Source of the DNA: Bacteroidota bacterium
Lineage (GTDB): Bacteria > Bacteroidota > Bacteroidia > Chitinophagales > Saprospiraceae
Reading direction: 5' to 3'
NCBI GenBank assembly: GCA_017857395.1
Contig: JAFMDF010000041.1
Coordinates: 1-45,832, forward strand
DNA length: 45,832 bases
Part shown: piece after piece, positions 137-36,644 of the stretch
How positions within the stretch are numbered: position 1 is the stretch's first letter
Layout of the letters: every line of letters starts with the position of its first letter
Made by a program: the position numbers and the translations under genes
The notes under the pieces: model-generated
The model's database searches: none
Told to the model about the DNA's origin: nothing
What the model saw: only the letters and a program-made list of their open reading frames with translations

Positions 137-3103
137 ATGGCTAAGCAGCAACCGAATAAAAAAGAGCACCCTAGCAAAAAAAAATCATCACCTGCTTCAA
201 AAGCACCTGATTTTTTAATAGTAGGTATCGGCGCTTCGGCAGGAGGATTGGAGGCATTCAAAGAATTTTTTAATAATATGCCGCCTGATACAGGTATGGC
301 TTTTATCATCGTACAACATTTAGACCCCACTCATAAAAGTTTTCTAAGCGACTTGTTAAGGCATTATACAAAAATGGAGGTGTTGGAAATAATAGATAAT
401 ACCAAGGTTTTACCGAATACCATTTATACTATTCCACCTAATAAGGAACTAGGCATTTTTAATAAAACCCTTCAGTTGATGGAGCCTGTCGAACTGCGGG
501 GACACCGACGAACCATTGATTATTTTATGCGCTCGCTGGCAGATGACCAAAAAGATAAGGCAGTCGGGATTATCCTTTCAGGTACGGGAATAGAAGGAGC
601 AATAGGATTGAAAGCGATTAAAGGAGCAGGAGGGTTGACCATGGTCCAAGACCCAAATACTGCCAAATATGATGGGATGCCTCGGAGTGCTATTGCCGCA
701 AGTTCCGCCGATTATATATTGGCTGCGGACAAGATGCCCTCCAAATTAGTGAATTATATGAAAAAAAGGCGGATAAAGCCCATTTCGGTACAAACAGAAA
801 TAGTGTTTCAACAAAATATATTGGAAAAAATCTTCTTGCTTTTACGAGACCAAACGGGGAATAATTTTTCTTATTATAAAACCAGCACTATTATCCGTCG
901 GATTAATAAACGGATGGCGATAAATCAAATTACCAAACTGGAAACCTATCTGAAATACCTACAGAAAACACCAGATGAAATTAATTTGCTTTTCAACGAA
1001 TTGTTAATTGGGGTCACTAATTTTTTTAGAAATAAAGCCGCTTTTAAAGCATTAGAAGATAAAATCATTGCTGAAATAGTAAAAAATAAATCTGCCAAAG
1101 ATGTGATTCGAGTTTGGGTGCCAGGTTGCTCAAATGGTGAAGAAGCTTACAGTATTGCCATGCTTTTTGACGAAGCTTTGAGGAAGCAGCGAAAAAAAAT
1201 ACCGTTTCAACTATTTGCTTCTGATATAGACGAACGGGCTATTGACACCGCAAGAATGGGCATCTATCCTAATAGTATCGCTGTCGATGTGGGGGAAACT
1301 CGATTACAACGCTATTTTATAGTAGAAAATCATGTTTGTAAGGTAAAAAAAGAATTGCGAGATAAGGTTATTTTTGCGGTACAAAACTTGATTATAGATC
1401 CGCCCTTTTCCAAACTGGATTTAATAAGTTGCCGCAATTTGTTGATTTACTTAAATACAGATGCTCAAAAACGCGTTTTTCCAATTTTTCATTATAGCCT
1501 CAATCCTGAAGGCAAGCTTTTTCTTGGAACTTCGGAAACGATTGGTCAATTTAGTAATTTATTTACGCCATTAGACCGAAAAAATAAACTCTTTATCAGA
1601 AAATCGGGCATAGTCAAACAAAGACCGATGTTGGATTTTGCTCGAACCGACATTGATTATGATTCGTTGCAGAAAATTAAAATGGGAGTGCCTCAAAGAC
1701 ATCCGACTTTGAAACTTTCAGATCTTACCGAAAAAATCCTACTCCGTAATTACGCACCTAGTTGTGTGGTGATTAACGAAAAAAATGTTGCGCTTTATTT
1801 TTATGGAAATACAGGCAAATATCTACAGCCCTCGACTGGAGAGGCCAATCTTAATATCCTAGAAATGGCTCGAACTGGTTTAAAATCTGACCTGCGAGCA
1901 GCTATTTCTATAGTTCGAAAAAATAAAACAGATGTAGTACGTGCAGGGGTTCGGGTAAAGTCTAATGGAGGGCATTCGACCATCACCCTAAAGGTAAAAC
2001 CAGTCAACCAATCGGAAACGGAAGAACAGTTGATAATGATACTTTTTGAAGATTTTGCACCGACTATTCAAACACCGATTCCTGTGAAACCAGCAAGCGA
2101 AGGGGAACAAGCGCATATCGTTGAATTGGAACATGAACTGGCTTCTACCAAAGAATATTTACGCACGACTATTGAGGAATTGGAAATATCCAACGAAGAA
2201 CTAAAGTCCGCCAATGAGGAACTGCAATCTGCGAATGAAGAGTTACAAAGTACCAATGAAGAATTGGAAACTTCCAAAGAAGAATTGCAGTCGGTCAATG
2301 AAGAAATGATTACGGTAAATACGGAATTGCAAAATAAAATATTTGAACTAGCACATGCCCACGATGACATGTCCAACCTATTGGCTAGTACAGAAATCGG
2401 TACTGTTTTTTTGGGGAGTGACCTAGAAATCAGGCGTTTTACACCGTCTATAACCAAAGTAATTAATTTGATTCAAACGGACATTGGTCGGTCTATCCGA
2501 GACCTCGCTACCAACCTACGTTACGATGACTTGGCAATAGATGCTCAAAAAGTGTTAGATGATTTAAGCGTCATTCGAAGAGTCGTTCAGGCAAAAGATG
2601 GACAATGGTTTCACATGCAGATAACCCCCTATCGCACGACCGACAATGTCATTGACGGTGTAGTGATGACCTTTGTGGATACTACCGAAGAAAAAAATAT
2701 AGAAGAAAAATTGAAAAAGGTCAATGAACATTTTAATTTAGCATTGGAAGCCCTGCCTGCTGTAGCTTTTACCTGCAAAGCAAACGATAATTTAGAATTT
2801 ATTTTTGTAGGGGCAAGTGCCAAAAAAATATTGGGCTTTAGCCCAGAAAATTTTATGGACAATCCTGGTTTCTGGATAAAACGCATCCACCCTCAAGACC
2901 GAAAAAACGTAATAGCAACTTTAGCAAAATTAAGTTCCGAAAAATTTATTGACTACGAATACCGCTGGAAATGTGCGGATGGGATATACAAACGATTCAT
3001 TAGCCATGTTCGCTATGTTAAGTCACCCAAAAAAGAAGAGGAGGACTATTTAGTGGGCATTTGGCAATATATTTCTGCTAACCCAAAAACCAAAGATTCA
3101 TGA
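137..3103 (+). CDS. CheB-CheR-PAS fusion signalling protein
   Basis: Domains read in order: CheB methylesterase (about residues 25-210), CheR methyltransferase (about 235-490), a long coiled coil of repeating NEEL/EELQ units (about 660-745), then two PAS domains reaching the C-terminus. In CheB the nucleophile Ser34 (GASAGG) and His61 (VQHL) are present, but the usual catalytic Asp of the TG-x-DG motif is Glu153 (TGIEG). CheR keeps the SAM-binding motif VPGCSNGEEAYS (about 328-339) and SCRNLLIYLN. Fusions of this type are common in Bacteroidota and usually end in a histidine kinase. Here the kinase is a separate gene that overlaps by four bases (ATGA). The likely role is reversible carboxyl methylation feeding a sensory pathway; the substrate is unknown. 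The ATG at 137 is the first in-frame start. Confidence 0.93.
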   Translation: MAKQQPNKKEHPSKKKSSPASKAPDFLIVGIGASAGGLEAFKEFFNNMPPDTGMAFIIVQHLDPTHKSFLSDLLRHYTKMEVLEIIDNTKVLPNTIYTIPPNKELGIFNKTLQLMEPVELRGHRRTIDYFMRSLADDQKDKAVGIILSGTGIEGAIGLKAIKGAGGLTMVQDPNTAKYDGMPRSAIAASSADYILAADKMPSKLVNYMKKRRIKPISVQTEIVFQQNILEKIFLLLRDQTGNNFSYYKTSTIIRRINKRMAINQITKLETYLKYLQKTPDEINLLFNELLIGVTNFFRNKAAFKALEDKIIAEIVKNKSAKDVIRVWVPGCSNGEEAYSIAMLFDEALRKQRKKIPFQLFASDIDERAIDTARMGIYPNSIAVDVGETRLQRYFIVENHVCKVKKELRDKVIFAVQNLIIDPPFSKLDLISCRNLLIYLNTDAQKRVFPIFHYSLNPEGKLFLGTSETIGQFSNLFTPLDRKNKLFIRKSGIVKQRPMLDFARTDIDYDSLQKIKMGVPQRHPTLKLSDLTEKILLRNYAPSCVVINEKNVALYFYGNTGKYLQPSTGEANLNILEMARTGLKSDLRAAISIVRKNKTDVVRAGVRVKSNGGHSTITLKVKPVNQSETEEQLIMILFEDFAPTIQTPIPVKPASEGEQAHIVELEHELASTKEYLRTTIEELEISNEELKSANEELQSANEELQSTNEELETSKEELQSVNEEMITVNTELQNKIFELAHAHDDMSNLLASTEIGTVFLGSDLEIRRFTPSITKVINLIQTDIGRSIRDLATNLRYDDLAIDAQKVLDDLSVIRRVVQAKDGQWFHMQITPYRTTDNVIDGVVMTFVDTTEEKNIEEKLKKVNEHFNLALEALPAVAFTCKANDNLEFIFVGASAKKILGFSPENFMDNPGFWIKRIHPQDRKNVIATLAKLSSEKFIDYEYRWKCADGIYKRFISHVRYVKSPKKEEEDYLVGIWQYISANPKTKDS

Positions 3104-4317
3104 AAGATAAATTTAACGAAAGCTTGAGAGCAAAGGCAGAAGCGCGATTACAGGCAATGCCTGAGTTAGGGGATAATCCCTCGGTGGAAGAAGTAAAAAC
3201 CCTTGTCCACGAATTGCGAGTTTATCAAGTAGAGTTGGAAATGCAAAATCAAGAATTGCGAGAAGCACAAGAACGACTGGAAGCCTCTAGAGACCGATAT
3301 ACCGACTTATTTGAATTCGCACCCTTGGGCTATTTTATTTTGGATAAAAATGGGCTGATTGTGAATGCGAATTTAACAGGATGTAGCATGCTGGGAATCG
3401 AAAGAAAACGGCTATTAAAAAAACCTTTTGCCCTATTTGTTGCGGGAGGGCTTAAAACAGTTGGTATTTTTCGCAAATATTTTAAAGAAGTTTTTCAAAC
3501 GGACACCCAGCATATCCTAGAAATCAAATTAAAAAGAAAAGAAAAAAACGATTTTACCGCTCGGCTGGATTCGGTGAGAATGCAAGATGAAAGGAATCAT
3601 CCGACCCTTTGTCGGATGGCAGTAACAGACATCACCAACGAAGAACGGGCAAAAAAACAATTGGAAGAAGTACTAGAAGCCCTGGAAAAAGAAAGAAGCA
3701 GGATTGCTGCCGACCTACATGACAGTATCAACCCCTTATTGTCCATCAGCAAATTAAGTATAGAATCTAGTATCAATGCACGCTCACCATCAGGGACCAA
3801 CGATAAAAATCCTTTGGATAATGCCGTCAATATGTTAGAAAGGGCTATCAAGGAAATAAAGGCTATTTCTGCCAACCTATTGCCAACTATTTTACGGGAT
3901 TTTGGAATCGTTACTGCCCTACAAGACCTAGTTGAAAAAATTAATCAAAGTGAATCTTTACAAGTTAATCTGGATATACACATTGCCAAACGACCAAATA
4001 AAAAAATTGAACTAGCCCTATTTCGGATAACTCAGGAGTTGTTGAATAATGTGCTCAAACATGCCAAAGCCAGTAAGGTGGAAGTCCAATTAATTCTCCA
4101 TAGACAGAGTATCGTGTTAATGGTCAATGATAATGGGAAAGGCTTTGATAGTAATAATCAACTATTTTTTACCAATGGCTTTGGATTCCACAATATATTC
4201 AGTAGAGTTAAAACCTTGGATGGTACGGTAGATATTGATTCAACTATTGGGTTAGGAACTTCTGTGGTGATAGAAATACCTTTAGGCAGTAGGCAGTTTG
4301 TTCAGAATTTGGGATAA
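3100..4317 (+). CDS. PAS-domain sensor histidine kinase (HisKA_3/NarX-like)
   Basis: This 405-residue soluble kinase has an N-terminal coiled coil (about 30-65), one PAS domain (about 66-185), a HisKA_3 dimerisation helix with phospho-acceptor His207 (AADLHDS), and an HATPase_c domain with an N-box (ITQELLNNVLKHA) and G-box (DNGKGF). No membrane segment is visible, so it probably acts in the cytoplasm. It starts inside the stop codon of the CheB-CheR gene, implying translational coupling. HisKA_3 kinases normally pair with NarL/FixJ regulators, and one lies nearby on the opposite strand (6526-5879). The last residues and stop codon fall within a short sequence repeated near 40,019, so the tail may have been altered by a repeat. 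Confidence 0.93.
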   Translation: MKDKFNESLRAKAEARLQAMPELGDNPSVEEVKTLVHELRVYQVELEMQNQELREAQERLEASRDRYTDLFEFAPLGYFILDKNGLIVNANLTGCSMLGIERKRLLKKPFALFVAGGLKTVGIFRKYFKEVFQTDTQHILEIKLKRKEKNDFTARLDSVRMQDERNHPTLCRMAVTDITNEERAKKQLEEVLEALEKERSRIAADLHDSINPLLSISKLSIESSINARSPSGTNDKNPLDNAVNMLERAIKEIKAISANLLPTILRDFGIVTALQDLVEKINQSESLQVNLDIHIAKRPNKKIELALFRITQELLNNVLKHAKASKVEVQLILHRQSIVLMVNDNGKGFDSNNQLFFTNGFGFHNIFSRVKTLDGTVDIDSTIGLGTSVVIEIPLGSRQFVQNLG

Positions 4318-4362
4318 AGTTCCCCGACTTTTTTTGTCCGATGAATCTAGTCTCCAGACTAG
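4299..4362. repeat. Dispersed repeat pair (locus 1)
   Basis: A 23-base sequence at 4299-4321 (core TTCAGAATTTGGGATAAAG) recurs at 40019-40041 with one mismatch in 23. Just downstream, 4347-4362 is the dyad CTAGTCTCCAGACTAG, whose family also appears at 26274-26291, 26375-26398 and, decayed, near 39998. The first part contains the stop codon of the histidine kinase. Function is unknown; it resembles REP-like intergenic DNA. Confidence 0.6.
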
Positions 4363-4702
4363 GAATATCGAAACAAAAATTACGGGTTGAAAAAATTCAT
4401 ATATCTCCTTAATTCTAAACCGTCTAAAAATTAACTATTTAGATAGCTATGATTTTGGTAGTTGATTTATCTACTATCAAAAATCCAGTATCTAGAATCA
4501 ATTTACCAATCAACTTTATTTATCTCTCAATAAAATCCACCCTCCTAAAAGCATTCGAAGCTTTGAGGGGGCGCACAGAAAGCGCCCCCGTAGCAGCTAA
4601 CCCGAAATCTACAGCTTATTTATTTATTTTTCCTAAAAATAAGGCGTTATATTAAATGACCACCTTATATCAATAAAATATAAATGGTTTGGAAATGATT
4701 AT
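4318..4702. other. Convergent intergenic region, no convincing gene
   Basis: About 385 bases between two convergent genes. It holds the repeat dyad at 4347-4362, an imperfect AT-rich hairpin near 4450-4484 and the GC-rich hairpin at 4567-4589. A 68-codon open frame at 4449-4655 runs through these hairpins, has no recognisable motif and is judged spurious. Confidence 0.6.
4567..4589. terminator. GC-rich hairpin between convergent genes
   Basis: GGGGGCGC and GCGCCCCC form a perfect 8-bp stem with a 7-base loop. It stands out in very AT-rich DNA between the 3' ends of the histidine kinase (+) and the receiver protein (-). There is no clear T-tract on either side, so the terminator call is tentative. 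Confidence 0.45.
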
Positions 4703-5107
4703 TTATTGAGGAACACATTCCAGAATTTCCTTAATATTTCTAAGCAAGTCCACCATCGTAAAAGGTTTAGTCAAATAGCGATCTGCGCCAGAACTTGCCC
4801 CCAACAGCTTATCTCCTTTTTGCGCCTTGGCGGTCAGAAAAACAAACGGAATCATAGCGGTTTTAGCATTGGCTCGGAGCGCATTCAACAACTCAAAACC
4901 ATTCATTTTAGGCATGGTGACATCACTGATAATGAGGTCAGGTCGCTCATTTTTTGCACTTTCCAACCCTATTTGTCCATTTTTTGCAGCAACGACTGTA
5001 TAGCCTTTTAATTCTAGCAACTCTGTAGTTGTTTCTAGAATGTCTACATCATCCTCGACGACTAGTATTTTTTTAGTGGATACTTTCTCGATTGGGGGCT
5101 TTATCAT
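4703..5107 (-). CDS. Single-domain response regulator (receiver only)
   Basis: This is a 134-residue CheY-like receiver with acidic pocket residues Glu18-Asp19-Asp20, phospho-acceptor Asp62 (SDVTMP), Thr92 (FLTAK) and Lys114 (LTKPF). It has no output domain, so it should act through protein contacts or as a phosphate relay or sink. It lies convergent to the CheB-CheR/kinase pair and is a plausible partner for that signalling protein. About 770 bases separate it from the NarL-type regulator on the same strand, so shared transcription is uncertain. Confidence 0.93.
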   Translation of the reverse strand: MIKPPIEKVSTKKILVVEDDVDILETTTELLELKGYTVVAAKNGQIGLESAKNERPDLIISDVTMPKMNGFELLNALRANAKTAMIPFVFLTAKAQKGDKLLGASSGADRYLTKPFTMVDLLRNIKEILECVPQ

Positions 5108-5285
5108 AGTTCTTGTTTTAATTAATGAAAAGTAATAAAGACTGTACGAAGTTTTGAAAATGCTTTAGTAACGCCTAATCTAGGGACGGGGCAGCACTAA
5201 AGCTCAATTCCAAAACACCAGAATAGACAAGCAGTATTTCGCTTTTCGCATATGATTAAAAGAAGTCAGATGAGCAAAAATGAGC

Positions 5286-5409
5286 TGATTCAATTGTTAG
5301 AAATTGAATCATGCTACATTTTGAGTTTAATGCCATTAAAGTGTTTCATAGTGGAAATAGGCATTTTGTTACTCACCCAAAAACAAAATTTGACTAAAGG
5401 ATTGGGTGA
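5286..5409. other. Two hairpins upstream of the receiver gene
   Basis: TGATTCAATT (5286-5295) and AATTGAATCA (5302-5311) form a perfect 10-bp stem around a 6-base loop, extendable by AGC/GCT with one bulged base. TCACCCAA (5373-5380) pairs with TTGGGTGA (5402-5409). Both lie in non-coding DNA 180-300 bases upstream of the receiver start. They could be a small RNA, a leader structure or decayed repeats. The rest of 5108-5461 shows no gene. Confidence 0.45.
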
Positions 5410-5461
5410 TTGAATGGGGATTTAGGCGTTAAATATTTACGAAGATAAGTAGTCTTAAATA

Positions 5462-5632
5462 AGAGCTTGTTGAGAATTTATCCTTTAGGCTAAAAAAACG
5501 CCTTTTTCGTCCTGATTTCGTATAGCTTATTAACAATATCGATAGCTATTGAGCTATTACAAAGAAATTTCACATCATCAGCACAAAAGATCCATCTTCA
5601 TTATCTCCAAAAACAAATCCCTAACAAGCTCT
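5462..5632. mobile_element. MITE-like or solo IS remnant (171 bp)
   Basis: The left end AGAGCTTGTTGAGAATTTAT and the inverted right end AGAGCTTGTTAGGGATTTGT match perfectly over the first 10 bases and in about 15 of 20 overall. The element is flanked on both sides by AATAA, consistent with a 5-bp target duplication, although the AT-rich setting weakens this. The interior is too short for a transposase. On the minus strand it carries about 29 codons without a stop, ending near the left end, which may be the last residues of a lost transposase. Ends of this kind are typical of Bacteroidota IS elements; no family can be assigned by eye. Confidence 0.5.
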
Positions 5633-5769
5633 AATAAAAAAGTCGGGTGATTTTTGGTTATATTAATCAGGTCATCAGCAATTTCACAAAACCTTGTTTG
5701 CGAAAGCTGATGCCATAGATTTTTGGGGTTACCCTTACCGATGTCTACAAAGATAGGTGAGAATAACAT
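5578..5769 (-). pseudogene. Short hypothetical ORF, possibly truncated by the MITE-like element
   Basis: A 63-codon frame starts at 5769 and runs into the MITE-like element at 5632, so its last 18 or so codons are element sequence. The first 45 codons encode a soluble-looking segment (ending NITKNHPTFLL) that I do not recognise. The most economical reading is the 5' remnant of a small gene interrupted by the element; a chance ORF is equally possible. Confidence 0.25.
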
Positions 5770-5860
5770 TTTTTTTCAGAGGGCAGGAACGTAAATTTAA
5801 ACTACGTTTTAGAACGTATATTTTAAATTATTTTTTAATATATTTTAAATTAAAATTCAT

Positions 5861-5887
5861 AAATCAAATCAAATCAAATCAAATCAA
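5861..5887. repeat. Pentanucleotide microsatellite (AAATC)5
   Basis: Five tandem AAATC units followed by AA overlap the last codons and stop of the NarL-type regulator. The minus-strand frame hits its stop at the start of the tract, so slippage would add or remove only untranslated sequence. Confidence 0.8.
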
Positions 5888-6526
5888 GCCTTTCTTTGCT
5901 GCATAATTAGTAAGTGCAGCCGCATTATGAAGATTGAGTTTTTCCATCATATTTCGGCGATGAGTATCTACAGTACGATGGCTAATAAATAGTTTTAAGC
6001 CGATTTCCTGATTAGTCAATCCTTGTGCCACCAATTTTAGTACCTCTATTTCTCGTTTGGTGAGTGGTGTATTATAAATTTTATCGTAAATACGGGGCTT
6101 TTCGTTCGAAAAAATTAATTTACTAGAAACCTCTTTACTGAAATAACTATCACCCGTACTTACTGTATTGATTGCTAGAAGTAACTCTTCTTTTTTGCAG
6201 GATTTTAGAATATATCCTTTGGCACCCTTTTGTAACATTCGGCGAAAGTAGTGTTCATCATCATGCATCGAAAAAACCAAAATATTTAGCGCTGGATATT
6301 TCTCTAAAAGCGGAGTAATTACTTCTAAACCAGAACATTCAGGCATATCTATATCTAATAAAAGAACATTTACTTGTTGCTGGCCTATATTATTAAGCAA
6401 TTCTTTGCCGTTTGATGCCTCCCCCACTACCGTTAAGTCCGTTTCATTTTCTAAAATACTTCGCAAGCCTTCTCGAAAAAGGTGGTGGTCGTCTGTTATA
6501 AAAATTTTAATACTCGATGTGTTCAT
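5879..6526 (-). CDS. NarL/FixJ-family response regulator
   Basis: 215 residues. The receiver domain (about 5-122) has acidic Asp12-Asp13, phospho-acceptor Asp58 (LLLDIDMP) and Lys108 (ILKS). A LuxR-type helix-turn-helix occupies about 150-212 (TKREIEVLKLVAQGLTNQEI; SHRTVDTHRRNMMEKL). It should bind DNA as a phosphorylated dimer. The natural partner type is a HisKA_3 kinase, and the one encoded at 3100-4317 is the nearest candidate. Transcription runs toward the receiver-only gene. The 3' end lies in an (AAATC)5 tract. The 227-base region upstream (6527-6753) contains no evident gene or strong promoter match. Confidence 0.94.
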   Translation of the reverse strand: MNTSSIKIFITDDHHLFREGLRSILENETDLTVVGEASNGKELLNNIGQQQVNVLLLDIDMPECSGLEVITPLLEKYPALNILVFSMHDDEHYFRRMLQKGAKGYILKSCKKEELLLAINTVSTGDSYFSKEVSSKLIFSNEKPRIYDKIYNTPLTKREIEVLKLVAQGLTNQEIGLKLFISHRTVDTHRRNMMEKLNLHNAAALTNYAAKKGLI

Positions 6527-7940: not shown

Positions 7941-9134
7941 CTATGATACGGCCTCTTTAACATCTTTGGTAGTATTTATATCCCAAAAATTATTATGGTT
8001 ACACGGTTCTACAGTTTCTTCAAAAACTTTTTGTGCTGCTTGATAGCCTTTTTCAATTCTTGATAAAACTTGGTCTTTGCTAAAATCGAGCGTGTTTCCG
8101 ATGGTATCCTCTGGTTGAATAATCTTATAATAAAATTTCCGAAGCGTCCTACCATCTTTTAAATTGGTTAGGCAATAGGGTTCGTTATTCTCATCCATGC
8201 CAAATGCATCTACCTGTCGAAGCAAATCATTTATGCGAATAAATTCACTAATATCATTTTCAAATATTTCATTTAAGGTAATGTCTAACATGGACCGATA
8301 GGCGATATTTAAAAAATTCAGTTGCTTATCAGAGGCTTCCTTAAGCGGTTCTAATTTGCCACAATGATTGTTAATAATGATGATGTAGTAATCCGTATTC
8401 TTATCATAATTTTCATTTACATCTTTTACAATATCGCCCAGTGGGGAGACATTTCGAATGCCCCCATCCACTAATTTATTAATAGGTTGACCATCAATTG
8501 GAGCAATAGATTTTACCATGGGGAAAATAGCAGGCATAGCAGCCGATGCCAGTATCGCTTTTTTAAATTCTTTATCCGAAAGGGAACTATGTTTAATAGA
8601 GTAATACTTCCCGTTTTCCAAACTAACGAAACCTACTCGAAGAATTTCACTCTTAACCTCCGCTACATTCATGAGCTGGTTGATTTTTTCTTCTAAGGGT
8701 TTACTGGATGCTACTGCCTCCATATTCAATATTTTCTCAATGATTTGTTTGCCAAATTTTTCTTGATTTTTTTTAAATAATAAGCCAAGCTTATTCCGCC
8801 AGTTAAGTTTGGGTATCAATTTAAGAAAAATATTCTTCAAACTTGGTTGAAAATCCTTATTTACAAAATCAGAGACCCAGACTGCTCCAGGGTTTCCTGC
8901 AATGGTATTTGTCCATAAATCCTCTAATTCGGGGAATTTTCCAGCAGCTACCATCGCAGCATTCAGGCTCCCAGCAGATATCCCAGCTATATAATCAAAC
9001 AATACATCCTTTCCTTCTGTATGGCTGTCAGCGTGAGGTATGCCCTTTTCAAAGATGTATTTTAATGCGCCTATTTGGAAAGCGCCCTTAGCACCTCCAC
9101 CACTTAGTACGAGTATGTATTTTTTCTTTTTCAT
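7941..9134 (-). CDS. Patatin-like phospholipase
   Basis: The catalytic Ser-Asp dyad of the patatin family is clear. The oxyanion loop is SGGGAKGAFQIG (residues 11-22), the nucleophile is Ser53 (GISAG) and the aspartate is Asp223 (DGG). The family hydrolyses acyl esters of phospholipids and other lipids. I chose the ATG at 9134 (397 residues), because the upstream extension to 9236 encodes a poorly matching 34-residue stretch and the core fold begins right after MKKKKYILVLSGG. No signal peptide or transmembrane segment is visible, so it is probably cytoplasmic or peripheral. It is divergent from the hydroxyacyl-CoA lyase gene, which suggests it supplies or remodels fatty acids for that pathway (inference). 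Confidence 0.9.
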   Translation of the reverse strand: MKKKKYILVLSGGGAKGAFQIGALKYIFEKGIPHADSHTEGKDVLFDYIAGISAGSLNAAMVAAGKFPELEDLWTNTIAGNPGAVWVSDFVNKDFQPSLKNIFLKLIPKLNWRNKLGLLFKKNQEKFGKQIIEKILNMEAVASSKPLEEKINQLMNVAEVKSEILRVGFVSLENGKYYSIKHSSLSDKEFKKAILASAAMPAIFPMVKSIAPIDGQPINKLVDGGIRNVSPLGDIVKDVNENYDKNTDYYIIIINNHCGKLEPLKEASDKQLNFLNIAYRSMLDITLNEIFENDISEFIRINDLLRQVDAFGMDENNEPYCLTNLKDGRTLRKFYYKIIQPEDTIGNTLDFSKDQVLSRIEKGYQAAQKVFEETVEPCNHNNFWDINTTKDVKEAVS

Positions 9135-9242
9135 GATATTTTTTTGATAATAAAGACAGTTCAAAACATCAAATCTGTACTTTAAATTAGTATTAAATAA
9201 ATATATCAATGCAATGATATGCTTTATAGTGACCATACAAGA

Positions 9243-9277
9243 TGACTTTTGTTATTTCTACCGATTGACTTTTATCA
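9243..9277. promoter_or_regulatory. Tandem dyad-like sites in divergent patatin/lyase promoter region
   Basis: TGACTTTTGTTA (9243-9254) and TGACTTTTATCA (9266-9277) are direct near-repeats 23 bp apart. The second fits TGA-N6-TCA, the half-site arrangement of CRP/FNR-family regulators, and the first is a degenerate version. Similar tandem sites occur at 18841-18877 and 33579-33665. Confidence 0.35.
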
Positions 9278-9353
9278 TTAACTAGGAAGATTATTAAAGG
9301 TAAATTGGGAGAAAATTCATTTTATAAAAAAGATTTATCAAAACAAGGATAGT

Positions 9354-11081
9354 ATGAATGGAGGACAAATAATTGCACAAACACTACAACTTTATGGCGT
9401 TGACCATTTATTTACCCTTTGCGGGGGACATATTGCACCTATATATGTGGAAGCAGAAAATGCAGGAATGGAGGTAGTAGATGTTCGAGATGAAGCCTCA
9501 GCTGTTTTTGCAGCAGATGCCTATGCTCGGCTAAAAGGCATTCCTGGAGTAGTGGCGGTAACCGCAGGTCCTGGATTAACAAATTCCATTACTGCCTTGA
9601 AAAATGCACAAATGGCACAATCCCCCATTCTATTACTAGGTGGCGCAACCGCAACCATGTTAAAAGGAAGAGGAGCTTTACAGGATATTGACCAGATGGC
9701 TTTGATAAAACCTCATGTAAAGTGGGCGGTTCCCATAAAAAGATTAAGAGATTTGGCATCGGCTATTCACAAGGCAATGAAAATTGCTTTGCAAGATGTT
9801 CCAGGCCCTGTTTTTATAGAGTTACCGGTAGATTTACTCTATGGCGAAAAAGAAATAAGGGAATGGTATGCTAAGGACATCGCTAAAAATACAACGCTGA
9901 AAGATAAAATGGTCAGCTGGTATTTGAAAAATCACCTTCGCAAAATGTTCGCACAAGTACCGCCCATTCGCACGTTAGCACCACCAATACCTTCTTTTCC
10001 ACCAATCGCTTCTTTTAATATTCAGGATGCAAAGCAACAATTAAAAAAATCAAAAAGACCTGTTTTAATCATCAGTAGCGGAGCGATGCAATCCCCTAGT
10101 CAGGCAGTTCAATTATCCACAGCCGTCAAAAAATTAGGCATACCCGTTTACCTAAGCGGAATGGCGAGAGGGCTGACAGGACATCATGATGAAGTGCAAT
10201 TTAGACACCAACGAAAAATAGCACTTCGGGAAGCAGATTGTATTTTACTGGCGGGTGTACCCTGTGATTTTCGACTGGGATACGGAAAAGCGTTAAATCG
10301 AAAAGCTTTTAAAATTACCATCAATAAAAGTAAAACAGAATTAAGAAAGAATATAAAACCACAACTTCAATACCAATGTGACCCCGCCACTTTTTTGATT
10401 CAATTAGCTTCAGAAGCAACTGACTTGCCTAATTGGGCTGATTGGAAAGAAACCTTACAAAAAAGAGAAGCAGAAAGAGATGCCGAAATACAGGAAATGG
10501 CACAAAATGAAGTCAAAGACATCAACCCCTTAGCCTTATTTCTAAAAATGGAAAATTTGCTTCCCGATGCTTCGATTTTAGTCGCTGACGGCGGAGATTT
10601 TGCAGCATCCGCTTCTTATACCCTTCGCCCACGAGCACCCTTGAAGTGGTTAGACCCTGGTGCTTTTGGCACACTTGGTGTCGGTGGTGGCTTCGCCCTC
10701 GGTGCAGCCATTCACTATCCAGATGATTATATATGGATTATCTATGGAGATGGAAGTGCTGCTTATAGCCTGATGGAATTTGATACTTTTAAGAAAAGAA
10801 ATTTAAAGGTCTGTGCCATCATTGGAAATAATGGTTCTTGGGAGCAAATTGCCAGAGACCAAGTGACCCTATTGGGCGCAGCAACGGCTACTACCCTTCC
10901 GCAATCCAATTATCAGGATATTGCAAAAGCATTTGGAGCAGACGGAGAACGGGTGGACAATATGGAAGCATTTGAGCAAGCTATCGGTAATGCCAAGGAA
11001 AGTATGGATAAAGGAATCCCCTATGTTATCAATGCAATCATTGGTTCTACACCGTTTCGGAAAGGGAGTATTTCCATTTAG
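9354..11081 (+). CDS. ILVBL/HACL2-like 2-hydroxyacyl-CoA lyase (ThDP enzyme)
   Basis: A 575-residue thiamine-diphosphate enzyme of the acetolactate-synthase fold. The N-terminal Pyr domain holds the ThDP-activating glutamate ([17 protein letters not shown]). A central domain follows. The C-terminal PP domain holds the ThDP/Mg motif from GDGSAAYS to NN. The phrases [25 protein letters not shown] and [14 protein letters not shown]-like [14 protein letters not shown] closely recall vertebrate ILVBL (2-hydroxyacyl-CoA lyase 2), more so than true acetolactate synthases, and no regulatory subunit gene is present. The expected reaction is cleavage of 2-hydroxyacyl-CoA to an aldehyde one carbon shorter plus formyl-CoA. 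It lacks the N-terminal membrane anchor of the animal enzyme. A CoA-transferase gene follows after 42 bases. Confidence 0.85.
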
Positions 11082-14880: not shown

Positions 14881-15379
14881 AGACTGTCAAAAGTCACCTA
14901 TTTAAAGTGATAATAGCCACCCCAAAATACCTTGATTATCTATTAATTTTGTTACAGAATAAGAATCGATTAAAATTTATTTAGTTAATGAGCTACAAAT
15001 CCAGTTAATAGGTATCTATAAGGCGTCTAAAAATATTTCGAAAGGCAGACAATTATCCCGTTCTTTTTGATGCCAGAGAAACTATCATTACTAAAGTAAA
15101 TAAATCCTACTTTCTAATGAAATAGTTAGGGGCTTTTCCAATTTTATAGGAATTGCTTTTTTTGATAGAGAAATTGCATTCCTATCAAAACCAATATAGA
15201 AATCAAAGATTCTGTGAAAGTTACCACTAGATATAAGGGAATCTTTACAAAGCCTTGCTTTATGGTCTCTATGAGATTTTCCTGTAAAAAAAAAGTAGGT
15301 TAGGTTTCCCATCTAGTGCATTCTCTTAGAGAAGAAAATTTCAGAATGAACAAACATGAATAAATAATAAACAGTTTGA
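14881..15379. other. Gene-poor AT-rich region with possible further relic
   Basis: No intact gene is supported. A minus-strand stretch (15284 down to 15144) reads as a short amphipathic start followed by one hydrophobic helix (KIPLYLVVTF, SLISILVLIGMQF) and then stops; it has no start codon and may be a decayed membrane-protein fragment. A 73-codon minus frame at 15312-15091 overlaps it in another frame and looks spurious. The promoter for the membrane glycosyltransferase gene must lie in the last part. Confidence 0.4.
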
Positions 15380-18096: not shown

Positions 18097-18771
18097 CTAT
18101 TGCCACAACAACATAGCAGTCGCCGTATTAATAGTAACAGCAATACTCATCTTACCATTTCCACCAGTTATTAAATTGGCACTAAGGATACCAAGTAACT
18201 CTCCTTTATTATTGAATAAAATACCATCACGGTTTTCATAAGGAGCATCGGTTTCCACCTGAATATAACCCACTAATTTCCCATCTGTGTATGTGCCCCG
18301 CATCATTTTCCCCGTTACCTGTGCCTCACAATGTATCGGGTACTTCTCTAAAGAATTATCAATTATTTTTATTTTTTCACCAGCCTTTAATTGGTCAACA
18401 TCTCCTATTTTAGCTACGGGTAAATACGTAGGAATTTGCCTTAATCGGAGTAGAGCAATATGCGCTTCGGGTATTGATTGAACTAAGTCTGCCTCTAGAA
18501 ATTGTCCTCCGTTAAATTTTACAGCAATGGCGGCTACCTTGGTCACCACTTCAGCTGTGGTCAAAATAAGTCCTGATTCAGCTATAATTACACCCGAAGA
18601 TATGGCAGTCGTTGGAAGGCTATCTTTTTCACGATTGCTCGTTTTTATGGTTCTTATGGTAACAACGCTATCTGTTGATTTAGCAATGGGTAAAATTAGA
18701 TTCGGTCTTGGTTTTATTGCTATACTGGTCATACTAAGATTAGTGACTAAAGCTGAGGCTGATAATTTCAT
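18097..18771 (-). CDS. HtrA/trypsin-fold protein lacking the catalytic triad
   Basis: 224 residues that follow the HtrA protease core in order. SSGVIIAESGLILTTAEVV corresponds to the GSGVII...TNNHVV strand, AHIALLRL to SDIALLKI, and NRDGILFNNKGELLGI to GNSGGALVN-GELIGI. The catalytic His is Glu74, the Asp is His104 and the Ser is Arg181, so all three are lost while the surrounding scaffold is kept. No PDZ domain and no clear signal peptide are present. It is probably a binding or regulatory pseudoprotease. It is transcribed divergently from a SPOR lipoprotein and a cytochrome c gene. Confidence 0.8.
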   Translation of the reverse strand: MKLSASALVTNLSMTSIAIKPRPNLILPIAKSTDSVVTIRTIKTSNREKDSLPTTAISSGVIIAESGLILTTAEVVTKVAAIAVKFNGGQFLEADLVQSIPEAHIALLRLRQIPTYLPVAKIGDVDQLKAGEKIKIIDNSLEKYPIHCEAQVTGKMMRGTYTDGKLVGYIQVETDAPYENRDGILFNNKGELLGILSANLITGGNGKMSIAVTINTATAMLLWQ

Positions 18772-18840: not shown

Positions 18841-18877
18841 GTGAGAAAAATCATTGCCTCGGAGTGATATTTATCAA
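18841..18877. promoter_or_regulatory. Tandem CRP/FNR-like dyads between pseudoprotease and SPOR lipoprotein
   Basis: GTGAGAAAAATCAT (18841-18854) and GTGATATTTATCAA (18864-18877) both fit TGA-N6-TCA and are 23 bp apart centre to centre, about two helical turns. They lie 70-107 bases upstream of the minus-strand start and 118-155 upstream of the plus-strand start. Confidence 0.45.
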
Positions 18878-18994: not shown

Positions 18995-19564
18995 ATGAAA
19001 AATATAAAATTAACGGTTAAAACAACCATTCTATTCGTCCTTATTATTTTGGTTTCCAGTTGTGCCACTAAAAAAGAATTGGCAGACCTTAAGGAGGTTC
19101 GCAACACAGAAAAAATATCCTATCAAGTGCTGGAAAAAGACAACGATTTACTAAAGACAGAACTTCAGTCCACGAAAAAATGGAATACGGAATTACAGGA
19201 AGTAAATGCCGAATTGACCGCCAAACTTCGAGCAGCCAAAGCATCACTCTGTCAAATATCAGGACAGGCGACAGAATGTCCAGCAGACTACGCACAAGGG
19301 GTTGTATTTAAGGTGCAAATAGGCGCATTTAAAGACAATGAACTACCCGAAGACCCGATAACTCCGGTTATCATTCTTGATACAGAAGATAAAGATGACC
19401 TGCAGAAAATTGTATTGGGTCAATTTAGAGATTACAGGAAGGCAGAAATATTGAAGTCTCATTTAAAAAACATGGGTATAAAAGATGCTTGGGTGGTTTC
19501 TTACAAGGATGGAATAAGAGTGCCCATTAAAACAATATTATCAGAGTTGGAGAAGAAACCATAG
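18995..19564 (+). CDS. SPOR-domain-like lipoprotein
   Basis: 189 residues. A lipoprotein signal ends at Cys23 (LVSSC), a coiled coil spans about 28-85, and a SPOR-like C-terminal domain (about 105-178) has the motifs FKVQIGAFKD and LGQFRDYRKAEILKSHLKNMG. SPOR domains bind peptidoglycan lacking stem peptides. It should sit in the outer or inner membrane facing the periplasm. A cytochrome c lipoprotein gene follows after 41 bases, probably in the same transcript. Confidence 0.8.
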   Translation: MKNIKLTVKTTILFVLIILVSSCATKKELADLKEVRNTEKISYQVLEKDNDLLKTELQSTKKWNTELQEVNAELTAKLRAAKASLCQISGQATECPADYAQGVVFKVQIGAFKDNELPEDPITPVIILDTEDKDDLQKIVLGQFRDYRKAEILKSHLKNMGIKDAWVVSYKDGIRVPIKTILSELEKKP

Positions 19565-20173: not shown

Positions 20174-20351
20174 TCTCGTACGATTTATTTTAGCATAAAC
20201 ACTAATCAGGTAAAAAATTGATAAATATCTGACGCCCTAAAATGATATAAGTCATTACAAATAAGGAAGTGTACAAAATTTATAAAAAAAGCCTATAGCT
20301 CTTACTACAAATCATGACTTTATAAAATTATCTAACCAAAATCCCCAAATT

Positions 20352-20495
20352 ATGAGTGTAAAAAAGCGATTTATAAAATCTAGAAAAAAATCTAAAGTCA
20401 CTTTCCAATTACCCATTAAAGGCGTTAATAGCGGAACAGCAGTAAAAGTCCTTGGTGACTTCAACTGTTGGTCTTGGGAAAACGGGATTTCACTT
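20352..20495 (+). pseudogene. Truncated glycogen-binding (CBM48/isoamylase early-set) domain
   Basis: The 48 codons from 20352 read like the start of the small early-set/AMPK-type carbohydrate-binding proteins common in Bacteroidota: MSVKKRFIKSRKKSKVTFQL, then a GTAVKVLGDFNCWSWE segment matching the VGDFN-W core. The domain stops about halfway and runs in frame, without a stop, into the signal peptide of the next protein. It is either a gene truncated by recombination or an N-terminal extension of the downstream protein. The former is preferred, because a signal peptide starts at Met49. Confidence 0.6.
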
Positions 20496-20984
20496 ATGTA
20501 CAACCAAAAAATAGGATTAAGCACCTTTCTCCTCTTTGCTTTTGTCCTGACTGGACTATATGCACAAGAAACCATACCTGCCGCAGGTGGTGTGGCTTCA
20601 AGTAGCGAAGGGACCGTCAGTTATTCCATTGGGCAAGTGGTATATACTACAAATATTGGAACAGATGGCTCTGTCTCACAAGGGGTTCAGCAACCTTATG
20701 AAATTTCGATTATTACTGGGCTTGAAGATGCAGCAGGAATAAACCTAGAAAGCGCTGTTTACCCCAACCCTACCTACAATTTCCTCTATATAAAAATTGA
20801 AAACTATAATAATGAAGACTTGTCCTATCATCTTTTTGACGGGAACGGTAAACTTTTAGAAGATAAAAGATTGACAGGCGAAGTGACTGCTATACCAATG
20901 TCTCACTTTGTTCCTGCTATTTATTTTCTAAAGGTAATTGATGAACAAAAAGCGCTTAAAACTTTTAAGGTTATTAAGCACTAA
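20496..20984 (+). CDS. Small secreted protein with T9SS type A sorting domain
   Basis: 162 residues if started at the ATG at 20496. I chose this start because MYNQKIGLSTFLLFAFVL-LYAQ is a good signal peptide; the longer frame from 20352 would bury it behind a partial carbohydrate-binding domain. The mature part holds a SEGTVSYSIGQVVYT-type segment frequent in such proteins. The last 75 or so residues form a T9SS sorting domain (AVYPNP near the start, YFLKV and KTFKVIKH at the end). It should be exported across the outer membrane and attached or released. It lies upstream of the tail-collar and subtilase genes. Confidence 0.85.
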   Translation: MYNQKIGLSTFLLFAFVLTGLYAQETIPAAGGVASSSEGTVSYSIGQVVYTTNIGTDGSVSQGVQQPYEISIITGLEDAAGINLESAVYPNPTYNFLYIKIENYNNEDLSYHLFDGNGKLLEDKRLTGEVTAIPMSHFVPAIYFLKVIDEQKALKTFKVIKH

Positions 20985-31436: not shown

Positions 31437-32408
31437 TTAAGCCAGCAAATGTGCCAACTCTACCAAATAGGGATTCATCGTCTTTTTATTTTTAATCGCC
31501 TTTTCAAAAGTAGTTCGTTTTACCTTATTATTCACCATGCCAATCATTACACCTTTATCCCCTTCCAATAAAGCTTTCACCGCTTCCATGCCCATCCAAC
31601 TAGCATTGACTCTTTCGAGTGCCGTTGGTCGTCCACCTCTTTGTATATGCCCTAAAATAGACACTCTAATGTCCAATTCTTTAAATTTTTTGCCAACTGT
31701 TTTGGCTACTTTTAAAGCACCTCCCATTTCATCCCCCTCTGCAACCACAACAATTATAGAACGATTTTTCAAGCGATAATTTTTTTCAATTTCAGTTATG
31801 AGTCTATCATAATCGGTATGTCTTTCAGGTAATAAAACCGCTTCAGCACCCGTAGCAATACCACTTCGGAGGGCAATATAGCCCACATCTCTACCCATTA
31901 CCTCTACAAAAAACAAGCGATTATGCGAATTGGCGGTGTCTTTAATTCTATCAATAGCATCCATAGCCGTATTGACCGCAGTATCAAAACCAATGGTAAA
32001 ATCTGTTCCGTACAAATCATTATCAATGGTGCCGGGGCAACCAACTATTTTTATGTCTGGATATTCTTTCATAAAAATGTCCGCTCCCGTAAACGTTCCA
32101 TCACCACCGATGGCTACAATGCCATCTATTCCTACTTTTTTTAATTGCAGATAAGCCTTTTTTCGCCCCTCTTTAGTGATAAATGCTTTGCATCGAGCAG
32201 ATTTTAAAATCGTACCGCCCCGTTGAATAATATTACTGACCGATTGGGTATCCATTTGGCGAAATTCCCCTGCAATCATTCCTTTATAACCTTCCATGAT
32301 TCCAAATACTTCTAAATCATTTCGAATACCTGTTCGAACAACTGCCCGAAGGCAAGCATTCATGCCGGGGGAATCTCCACCTGAAGTAAAAACCGCAATT
32401 TTTTTCAT
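31437..32408 (-). CDS. pfkA: ATP-dependent 6-phosphofructokinase
   Basis: 323 residues, the standard bacterial PfkA length. It phosphorylates fructose 6-phosphate at the committed step of glycolysis. Visible motifs are GGDSPGMNA (10-18), GGDGTF (101-106), catalytic Asp129 in PGTIDND, MGRDVGYIA and GHIQRGGRPTALER. Gly104 in GGDG marks ATP use; pyrophosphate enzymes carry Asp there. It lies 5 bases downstream of glucokinase, so the first and third glycolytic kinases are made together, and 14 bases upstream of tamB. Confidence 0.96.
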   Translation of the reverse strand: MKKIAVFTSGGDSPGMNACLRAVVRTGIRNDLEVFGIMEGYKGMIAGEFRQMDTQSVSNIIQRGGTILKSARCKAFITKEGRKKAYLQLKKVGIDGIVAIGGDGTFTGADIFMKEYPDIKIVGCPGTIDNDLYGTDFTIGFDTAVNTAMDAIDRIKDTANSHNRLFFVEVMGRDVGYIALRSGIATGAEAVLLPERHTDYDRLITEIEKNYRLKNRSIIVVVAEGDEMGGALKVAKTVGKKFKELDIRVSILGHIQRGGRPTALERVNASWMGMEAVKALLEGDKGVMIGMVNNKVKRTTFEKAIKNKKTMNPYLVELAHLLA

Positions 32409-33481: not shown

Positions 33482-33578
33482 AGTTATTATTGGTTAAAAT
33501 CTCTGTTATTGGATAAATTCATAAGTCAAAGGTCCCCGAATTTTAATGAAGTATTAATAACTTATGTCAATTGTCTTA

Positions 33579-33665
33579 GTGATTTTTGTCACCGCCCAGC
33601 AATTTTCTTTTGTTGAACCCCCGCTTAAAGTGACAATTATCACCCTACCCATTGACAAAAATCAC
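33579..33665. promoter_or_regulatory. Three CRP/FNR-like palindromes in divergent glk/oxidoreductase promoter
   Basis: Sites: GTGA-TTTTTG-TCAC (33579-33592), GTGA-CAATTA-TCAC (33630-33643) and TTGA-CAAAAA-TCAC (33652-33665). The first two are perfect GTGA-N6-TCAC dyads, the core recognised by CRP/FNR-family proteins; the third differs by one base. Centres are 51 and 22 bp apart, close to whole helical turns. They lie 98-184 bases upstream of glk and 35-121 upstream of the oxidoreductase start. Confidence 0.65.
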
Positions 33666-33699
33666 CAATATTAGGCTGTATCTCTTCTAATTTCGTTTT

Positions 33700-35396: not shown

Positions 35397-36644
35397 ATGA
35401 AAAAAGATAAAACGACTAGAATTGTCATTATCGGTGCGGGAGCAGCAGGTCTAACCGCAGCGGAAACCCTGCAAGAAAAAGGCTATCAAAACGTTACCCT
35501 TTTAGAAAAAGCCGCAGTAGCTGGAGGAAAATGCCACACGATAGAATTCGAAGGTAGAAATTATGAGTTGGGGGCAGGAATTATCGCAGGTAGCAATAAC
35601 ACTATTTTAGAACTATTGAAAAAAGTAGGGATGGTCCCAAAACTTATGGCATTAGGCCAATTCAATCTCTACGATTTGGAAAAGGGCGGTTTGTGCGATG
35701 AGAAAACACCGTTAAAAGAAAGAATCGCCTTTTGGTGGCAATTGTTATTAAACTATCGCCGCTTATCTTTATTGTATCAACCTAATCAGCATCCTGGTTT
35801 TGCGAATACGCACCCCGATTTATTCCTACCTTTTTCGGAATGGGCTAAACGGCATAAACTAGATTTGGTACAAAAAAATCTGGAATGTGTCTTTACTGGT
35901 TTTGGCTATGGCTATTGGGACAAAATACCTGCGGCCTATGTCTTAAAATATTATAGTTGGGAATCCTTAAAAGCCTATCTTAGAAAAGGGATTTATACCA
36001 TTCCAGCAGGAATTCAGACTTTATGGAAAAAAATTGCCAAAAATCATCGAGTCCGTTATAATACCACCATTCAGCAAATTCAAAGAAAAACTGAAATTTG
36101 TATTAAAACCAAACAACAAGAATTATTTTTTGATGAGCTAATATTAGCTTGTCCATTAGATGAAATCCTACCTTTTTTGGATGCTAGCATTATGGAGAAA
36201 ACATTATTTTCCAAAATAAAATATAATGATTATCAGACCTACGCTTGTACACTAGAAGGATTTCCGCAACAAACAGGTTTTATCCCTAATCATTTTCACA
36301 GCGATAAAAAAGGGCATCCAATTTTATGGTACAAACGCTACTCCGATTCTAATTTTTATACCATTTATGTTTTGGGCGATTGGCAAATATCGGAGTCAGA
36401 AATTATTCAGAATATCGAGGTTGCTGTTCAAAAATTAGGTGGTCAACTCAAACAAATCCATTCTATTACACATTGGAAATATTTCCCCCACGTTTCGTCT
36501 GAAGACATGAAGGCAGGTTTTTTTGAAAAGTTAGAAAACATGCAAGGAAAAAATAAAACCTATTATATAGGTGAGTTACCCACCTTCTCTATGGTAGAAT
36601 TAACGGCCGCTTATGCTAAAAATTTAATAGGCAATTATTTTTAA
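35397..36644 (+). CDS. FAD-dependent amine-oxidase-like protein
   Basis: 415 residues. A Rossmann FAD motif (IVIIGAGAAGLTAAE, from residue 9) precedes LLEKAAVAGGKCHT, the acidic-end strand and GG doublet of the amine oxidase/phytoene desaturase superfamily. The C-terminal YIGELPTFSMVELTAAYAK region takes the place of the final FAD-binding motif. It probably works with the preceding flavoprotein, given direction and spacing. The substrate cannot be inferred. The 144 bases after it, up to the convergent Asp-box gene, hold nothing obvious. Confidence 0.8.
   Translation: MKKDKTTRIVIIGAGAAGLTAAETLQEKGYQNVTLLEKAAVAGGKCHTIEFEGRNYELGAGIIAGSNNTILELLKKVGMVPKLMALGQFNLYDLEKGGLCDEKTPLKERIAFWWQLLLNYRRLSLLYQPNQHPGFANTHPDLFLPFSEWAKRHKLDLVQKNLECVFTGFGYGYWDKIPAAYVLKYYSWESLKAYLRKGIYTIPAGIQTLWKKIAKNHRVRYNTTIQQIQRKTEICIKTKQQELFFDELILACPLDEILPFLDASIMEKTLFSKIKYNDYQTYACTLEGFPQQTGFIPNHFHSDKKGHPILWYKRYSDSNFYTIYVLGDWQISESEIIQNIEVAVQKLGGQLKQIHSITHWKYFPHVSSEDMKAGFFEKLENMQGKNKTYYIGELPTFSMVELTAAYAKNLIGNYF

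Follow-up and report, generated by a model that had tools for sequence, protein, structure and literature searches.

Paired CRP/FNR-type dyads between glk and a flavoprotein gene belong to a large paired-site regulon, probably run by a low-oxygen sensor system, in a Saprospiraceae-like bacterium

The dyads located between the divergent glk and flavoprotein genes are one member of a large paired-site regulon, and a preliminary description, in which three dyads formed one array controlling glucose entry, was too narrow. Control of the promoter set probably lies with a sensor system for low oxygen that combines, in a single protein, two regulators which are otherwise separate. For the window (the whole stretch of 45,832 nucleotides analysed here) we consider it likely that two class II promoters are present, which would be part of this regulon and be run at low O2 by a heme-PAS kinase and a REC-CRP fusion. 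Computation established the paired sites, their fixed spacing, the promoter geometry, the association with the fusion gene, by linkage as well as by co-occurrence, and the heme-PAS similarity. Fusion and paired sites recur across Bacteroidota.

All gene calls (Table 1) are longest-ORF calls rather than those of a trained gene finder. The flavoprotein encoded next to the dyads matches the NCBIfam model carot_isom with 1.3e-49, yet below the cut-off. From gene order only, the second FAD oxidoreductase gene is possibly part of one transcript with it.

Table 1. Genes, dyads, predicted -7 boxes and tandem pairs in the window
Feature	Position	Strand	Remarks
pfkA, ATP-dependent 6-phosphofructokinase	31437-32408	-	5 bp after glk; TIGR02482 above cut-off
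glk, glucokinase, 355 aa	32414-33481	-	Pfam Glucokinase 4.3e-95; TIGR00749 above cut-off
Predicted -7 box, glk promoter, GACCTTTG	33527-33534	-	predicted start ~33522, 41-nt leader
Dyad ATAACTTATGTCAA	33557-33570		one mismatch to NTGAYN4RTCAN; nearer site of glk-facing pair; predicted -41.5
Dyad GTGATTTTTGTCAC	33579-33592		exact GTGA-N6-TCAC; farther site of glk-facing pair; predicted -63.5
Dyad GTGACAATTATCAC	33630-33643		exact GTGA-N6-TCAC; farther site of flavoprotein-facing pair; predicted -63.5
Dyad TTGACAAAAATCAC	33652-33665		nearer site of flavoprotein-facing pair; predicted -41.5; exact pair with 33630
Predicted -7 box, flavoprotein promoter, TAATTTCG	33688-33695	+	fixed offset; background frequency 0.0065
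FAD oxidoreductase, carotenoid isomerase/CrtI kind, 532 aa	33700-35298	+	Pfam Amino_oxidase 5.7e-20
Second FAD oxidoreductase	35397-36644	+	Pfam Amino_oxidase 2.4e-23
Tandem pair, 23 bp, one mismatch	9242-9278		before TPP-dependent enzyme gene 9354-11081 and patatin-like gene 7941-9236 (-)
Weaker tandem pair, 23 bp, one mismatch per site	14884-14920		nearest called gene start 466 bp off
Tandem pair, 23 bp, one mismatch	18841-18877		between divergent 18097-18771 (-, trypsin-like) and 18995-19564 (+)

The three dyads reported previously are present at 33579, 33630 and 33652 with the centre distances given for them (51 and 22 bp), and sequence evidence supports their reading as putative CRP/FNR-type operators. 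The exact motif GTGA-N6-TCAC occurs twice in the window against 0.20 expected, and two or more occurrences were reached in 3 of 100 shuffles. A fourth dyad, overlooked in the preliminary description, is located 22 bp from the 33579 site if one mismatch is allowed (33557-33570), and with it the sites group into two pairs, one next to glk (33557/33579) and one next to the flavoprotein gene (33630/33652). The idea of one array shared by both genes was therefore replaced by two tandem pairs, one per promoter. Both spacings had been regarded as close to whole helical turns; the 22 bp do carry meaning, as they are the spacing of the whole paired-site set, whereas the 51 bp are the gap between two divergent promoters. 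Altogether, five pairs at 22 or 23 bp with up to two mismatches were found in the window, all of them intergenic. One of these precedes the gene at 18995-19564 (+), the product of which is without a Pfam match and which is followed by a cytochrome c gene.

In the host genome bin (G000, 10.15 Mb), GTGA-N6-TCAC itself is not enriched (68 occurrences versus 61 for the reversed-pattern control). The refined motif GTGAYN4RTCAC was found 39 times (control 15), and pairs of TGAYN4RTCA separated by 0 to 30 bases 51 times (control 3). With 10 or 11 bases between the two dyads, corresponding to 22 or 23 bp from start to start, 43 pairs were counted and none in the reversed control. The site frequency, on which the preliminary description had made its reading depend, is thus far above the control for the refined paired motif, but not for the motif as originally given. 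The 28 G000 sequences analysed for geometry contain 127 exact intergenic sites, 46 of them without an exact partner. Of these, 36 have a partner with up to two mismatches at 22 or 23 bp; partners with one mismatch number 29 at these distances versus five over all other distances from 13 to 45. Lone sites are therefore mostly half-seen pairs.

For comparison, 13 contigs were chosen arbitrarily by their number. These 156,642 bases contained 11 single sites (control 7), all coding, and not a single one in their approximately 26 kb of non-coding DNA. The site-selected loci contained 117 intergenic and 24 coding sites, compared to 3 and 12 in the control; since these loci were chosen for having sites, only the genome-wide counts are free of selection bias. 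A foreign replicon as source of the tandem-site contigs was dismissed, as the G+C content of 20 site loci (0.324–0.377) is not visibly different from that of the 13 arbitrary contigs (0.327–0.372). The distribution of the tandem pairs is uneven, with strong clustering on a small number of contigs (C135, C367, C380 and C492), as if stress and micro-oxic genes formed islands. Identical copies of GTGATGTTTGTCAC are found at C132:39, C132:531 and C232:3132, two of them 492 bp apart; they are probably part of a repeated unit and not operators.

The promoter geometry was derived from 27 loci of G000 and the window, which were picked for having pairs and contain 43 exact pairs. Sides of pairs with a gene start within 350 bp were classified as facing (51 sides), the others as non-facing (35 sides); 16 of the 43 pairs sit between two facing genes. 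When the facing sides were superposed by the midpoint of their nearer dyad, a consensus near TAATTTTG was obtained at offsets 29 to 36, with A at 30 in 45, T at 34 in 49 and G at 36 in 31 of the 51 sides. The TTG of this -7 box is found at offset 33 or 34 on 37 facing sides (28 at 34, 9 at 33) versus 6 of the 35 non-facing sides, and at any other offset from 8 to 56 on never more than three facing sides. A background frequency of 0.01 or lower was calculated for the box on 34 of 49 facing sides (left-out-one model) and on 8 of 35 non-facing sides (full model), some of which precede genes just past the 350-bp limit. Offset 34 recurs at the fusion loci of other Bacteroidota, where TTG is present on 25 of 42 facing sides. 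In Bacteroidota sigma-A promoters TAnnTTTG occupies positions -12 to -5, according to the excerpts of PMC9723704; the nearer dyad is therefore predicted at -41.5 and the farther one at -63.5 or -64.5.

For both promoters in the window, the placing of the -7 box suggests the class II position -41.5. The glk-side box GGACCTTTG, located at the fixed offset, has a background frequency of 0.0003 and ranks at the top of both strands between 33482 and 33699, where the runner-up at 33599 (+) is strong, but unrelated and off the regulon offset. The flavoprotein transcript is predicted to start at about 33700 and would therefore be leaderless, a type of mRNA amounting to 5.5% in the species studied (PMC9723704, excerpts). 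In the minus direction the 33630 site has a weaker -7 box as well (background frequency 0.015), so that it may be used by both divergent promoters. The 33579 site alone was rejected as class II site for glk, as the corresponding -7 box is poor (background frequency 0.23). Of the suggested action of one regulator on both sides, the part that stands is that glk-pfkA and the flavoprotein gene each have a correctly placed -7 box; a single array of three sites used in common does not.

The activator of the paired sites is, from its sequence, most likely a REC-cNMP-HTH_Crp fusion. In G000, 14 matches to PF13545 were obtained, 11 above the cut-off, and ten CRP/FNR proteins were extracted, several with an E..(S)R-type recognition helix. 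Two fusions (351 aa each, 89% identical) are encoded on contigs C492 and C159, both from this bin, for which a contamination of 4.82% is given. The domains are PF00072 (3.6e-28), PF00027 (1.1e-20) and PF13545 (7.4e-13), the latter two above the cut-off, and the fusion also matches CRP structures. D52 and K104 of the receiver are invariant in 20 aligned fusions, as are E316 and R320 of the recognition helix (TAKESVIR), which we take to be the residues that read TGA/TCA. CRP contacts cAMP via E72, R82 and S83 (E. coli numbering); these contacts are absent from the fusion, which has Y, T and Y at these positions in the alignment with CRP structures, as read by eye. The iron-sulfur cysteine cluster of FNR is absent from it too, the only cysteines being those at 51 and 351. 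The earlier proposal of a CRP/FNR-family regulator is retained with respect to the operator type, but the protein acting there is likely to be a REC-CRP fusion of the two-component kind and not a classical CRP or FNR.

On C492 the fusion gene directly follows a gene for a FixL-like kinase, which is preceded by three exact sites. This kinase contains HisKA and HATPase_c domains and a PAS domain similar to the solved FixL heme domain (1d06, 3.9e-30). The PAS domain is aligned over its length, with the HD-Y and IIGIGR segments kept; the KHDSY motif has its His opposite the His of EHDGY, the proximal heme ligand of FixL. With 162.6 bits, the kinase scores far below the cut-off of 850 of the NCBIfam FixL model. 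The C159 copy is without an adjacent kinase gene; upstream of it are three sites spaced 23 and 22 bp apart, of which one is exact and the others have a single mismatch each (L022, 512-568). The window encodes a single-domain response regulator (4703-5107, -) with a receiver 52% identical to that of the fusion, near CheB/CheR-like and other signalling genes (137-6526). This protein might act as a competitor or as an additional input of that FixL-like kinase.

Co-occurrence was scored in 59 relatives as the presence of a full-length fusion (E below 1e-60) versus at least one exact pair. Pairs were found in 27 of 34 genomes with the fusion and 8 of 25 without it (Fisher 4e-4, kinship ignored and some genomes incomplete), in 21 of 24 versus 1 of 12 within the family (6.5e-6, kinship ignored) and in 3 of 3 versus 0 of 5 within the genus (0.018, kinship ignored). 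Exceptions in both directions are seven genomes with the fusion and no exact pair, and G035 (nine pairs), G053 (five pairs) and six one-pair genomes, which have pairs and no fusion that was found. In G053 a plain CRP gene adjoins one of the pairs, and the receiver may therefore be dispensable or lost.

A contig scan with the 20 aligned fusions was evaluated for the best 80 loci listed, all of which have titles that name Bacteroidota groups or uncultured bacteria; Phaeodactylibacter, Flavilitoribacter, Pontibacter, Spirosoma, Dyadobacter, Hymenobacter, Chitinophaga and Reichenbachiella are among them. Cultivated carriers of the fusion include Phaeodactylibacter xiamenensis and Flavilitoribacter nigricans. 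In these best 80 loci, a kinase gene is present in 73, the FixL heme pattern in 14 and an exact pair at 22 or 23 bp in 16; the pair spacings are 22 (18 times), 23 (nine times) and four others, with none in the control. The fusion was called in 63 of these 80 loci, 55 of which have an adjacent kinase gene on the same strand. In 29 of the 55 listed kinase-adjacent loci, a pair with no more than two mismatches in total precedes the kinase (interval searched: 300 bp upstream to 60 bp downstream of the kinase start), compared to a mean of 2.25 for control spacings. The FixL heme pattern was found in 12 of 30 loci of other relatives as well as in the 14 listed ones; O2 is therefore not the signal everywhere. 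Feedback on the regulator operon via paired sites is, as predicted from these loci, widespread, and a FixL-type sensor is present in only a part of them.

The genes near the sites fit a micro-oxic and stress regulon. In G000, the neighbours encode FtsH, PEP carboxykinase, universal stress (USP) and CBS proteins and a cation P-type ATPase, with OsmC within such clusters. The gene of NosZ is located behind a pair, one exact site is flanked by HemN on one side and a heavy-metal P-type ATPase on the other, and another is found 345 bp upstream of cbb3 subunit I/II, with CcoG downstream of cbb3. A PEP synthase gene beside sites has a poor box (0.648). Further neighbours are USP, CBS, glycogen-binding domain, AMP-binding synthetase, HMA, Rrf2, TonB and Hsp20 proteins, and 6 of 20 are without a Pfam match. 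The glucose-entry circuit proposed originally is replaced by a set that appears to be mainly micro-oxic and stress-related. In the window, the first residues of the protein encoded at 20352-20984 (+) resemble those of a small protein with a glycogen-binding domain, the gene of which (L047:817-1155, contig C236) has a tandem pair in front of it. The sequence ATGATATAAGTCAT at 20242-20255 is an imperfect site.

Conservation of the sites upstream of glk, by which the preliminary reading was to be judged, was not observed. A glk homologue is present in 4 of the 59 relatives, and none of the four has an exact site or pair within 400 bp. No glk was found in eight congeneric genomes (55–94% completeness), nor were glk relatives found among named genomes in the contig scan. 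Fifteen orthologues of the flavoprotein were identified, two without upstream DNA, and 0 of the remaining 13 have an exact site or pair within 400 bp; some of these glk and flavoprotein orthologues occur in genomes having the fusion. The wiring of both genes is therefore probably a lineage-specific addition.

Chance or relic sites between glk and the flavoprotein gene, with no effect on either, would be in line with this lack of conservation and with the missing genome-wide enrichment of the motif as first described. This is very improbable, as two pairs with the spacing of the regulon and two -7 boxes at the fixed offset are found within one 218-bp gap, and every pair of the window is intergenic. 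An ordinary one-component CRP/FNR protein (C543/C379 or C301 type) binding the tandem sites, with the REC-CRP operon as one more target, is unlikely. In its favour, several of the ten CRP/FNR proteins of G000 have a recognition helix that could bind similar sites, no fusion was found in G035 and G053 despite their tandem sites, and the C543 gene is in the network because of the sites upstream of it. Against this, orthologues of the C543 type (E below 1e-100) are present in the congeners G002, G005 and G008, none of which has a pair, while G004 has a pair and no C543-type match. Within the family, pairs were found in 14 of 18 genomes with and 8 of 18 without the C543 type (rank test 0.017, compared to 9.5e-5 for the fusion), and no C301-type orthologue below 1e-60 was found outside G000. 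Among the best loci listed, which span the phylum, the fusion operon was the only one found to have pairs ahead of its kinase gene. Both types were thus rejected as master regulators, their association with pairs being weaker or lacking. At the C543 locus (L048), the plain CRP/FNR gene is accompanied by SulP permease, rhodanese-like and MBL-fold genes, named by sequence reading, and several sites are located upstream; this locus may represent a branch of the network concerned with sulfur.

A third reading, somewhat less improbable, keeps the pairs and the fusion as described and replaces O2 by energy, redox or another PAS ligand as the signal. The differing kinase sensors in most of the listed loci and the prominence of stress proteins (USP, CBS, Hsp20) by the sites speak in its favour, but the PAS domain of the host kinase aligns to solved FixL over its length with both conserved segments, and cbb3, NosZ and HemN genes are found near sites. 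We therefore prefer O2 as the signal of the kinase in this host.

In the preferred reading, low O2 would leave the heme-PAS domain unliganded (deoxy-heme) and the kinase active, in line with the inactivation of FixL by O2, which is established in rhizobia (PMC4999443, excerpts). The FixL-like kinase would phosphorylate Asp52 of the fusion, two dimers of which might then bind side by side to paired TGAYN4RTCA sites at -41.5 and -63.5. The nearer dimer would make class II contact with RNA polymerase at a sigma-A promoter whose -7 box resembles TAnnTTTG. A micro-oxic and stress regulon would thereby be switched on, extended here to the entry of glycolysis (glk-pfkA) and the flavoprotein. The need for two dimers is compatible with cooperativity, with class II plus class I contact and with sharing by divergent promoters alike. 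What we infer from sequence is that the fusion is phosphorylated and binds the sites, that O2 is the signal, that the promoters are activated and not repressed, and that both glk and the flavoprotein gene are controlled in this way in vivo.

As to the wider proposal of a Bacteroidota-wide low-O2 and energy-stress regulon, with one REC-CRP, paired dimers at -41.5/-63.5, kinases varying with the lineage and glk-pfkA captured in this Saprospiraceae-like lineage, we regard the chances as even. If true, the capture of glk-pfkA would provide a transcriptional Pasteur switch, and the system would reveal that, and how, a two-step regulatory cascade was condensed into one protein. Since the paired operator and its fixed geometry have low noise (43 versus 0), circuits for low O2, N2O reduction and stress become predictable and testable. 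In the open-licence literature, no description of a REC-CRP fusion with paired sites and none of a master regulator of this form for aerobic Bacteroidota was found, both being weak evidence.

At class II promoters of FNR/ANR and CRP in Proteobacteria, a site with a TGA-N6-TCA core is centred at -41.5, and a second upstream site is also known. The predicted -41.5 site and the core are alike here, but the -7 box is of the type used by sigma-A in Bacteroidota, a second dimer adjoining the first at -63.5/-64.5 would be the rule, and the likely regulator is devoid of the FNR cysteine cluster and the cAMP contacts. Induction of cbb3 under oxygen limitation was reported for Flavobacterium, in a paper whose main text mentions neither CRP nor FNR (PMC9723704, excerpts). 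The one paper found in the open-licence literature with both FixL and Saprospiraceae describes CRP/FNR proteins of Saprospiraceae MAGs as MalR-like and treats them as carbon sensors; family and CRP/FNR regulation are the same, and neither a REC fusion nor a tandem operator appears in its excerpts (PMC8510549). The FixLJ-fixK circuit of Burkholderia shares the FixL-type sensor, induction at low O2 and a large affected gene set, the set being predicted here, but FixJ and fixK are separate there and the phylum is another one (PMC5234846, excerpts). With the FixL-FixJ-FixK cascade of Alphaproteobacteria the system shares a kinase with a FixL-like heme-PAS domain, an output protein of CRP/FNR type that is devoid of iron-sulfur cysteines, genes for cbb3, HemN and NosZ as likely targets and, as predicted here, feedback on the regulator operon (PMC4999443, excerpts). 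The cascade differs in that the roles of FixJ and FixK would be united in one protein here, without an intermediate fixK promoter step, and in that the operators here are pairs with a 22/23-bp repeat (PMC4999443, excerpts). The cascade would be condensed to two proteins by fusion of a FixJ-like and a FixK-like part, and because REC-cNMP-HTH_Crp after the kinase is one reading frame, the system would work like the FixLJ-FixK cascade rather than be a member of it.
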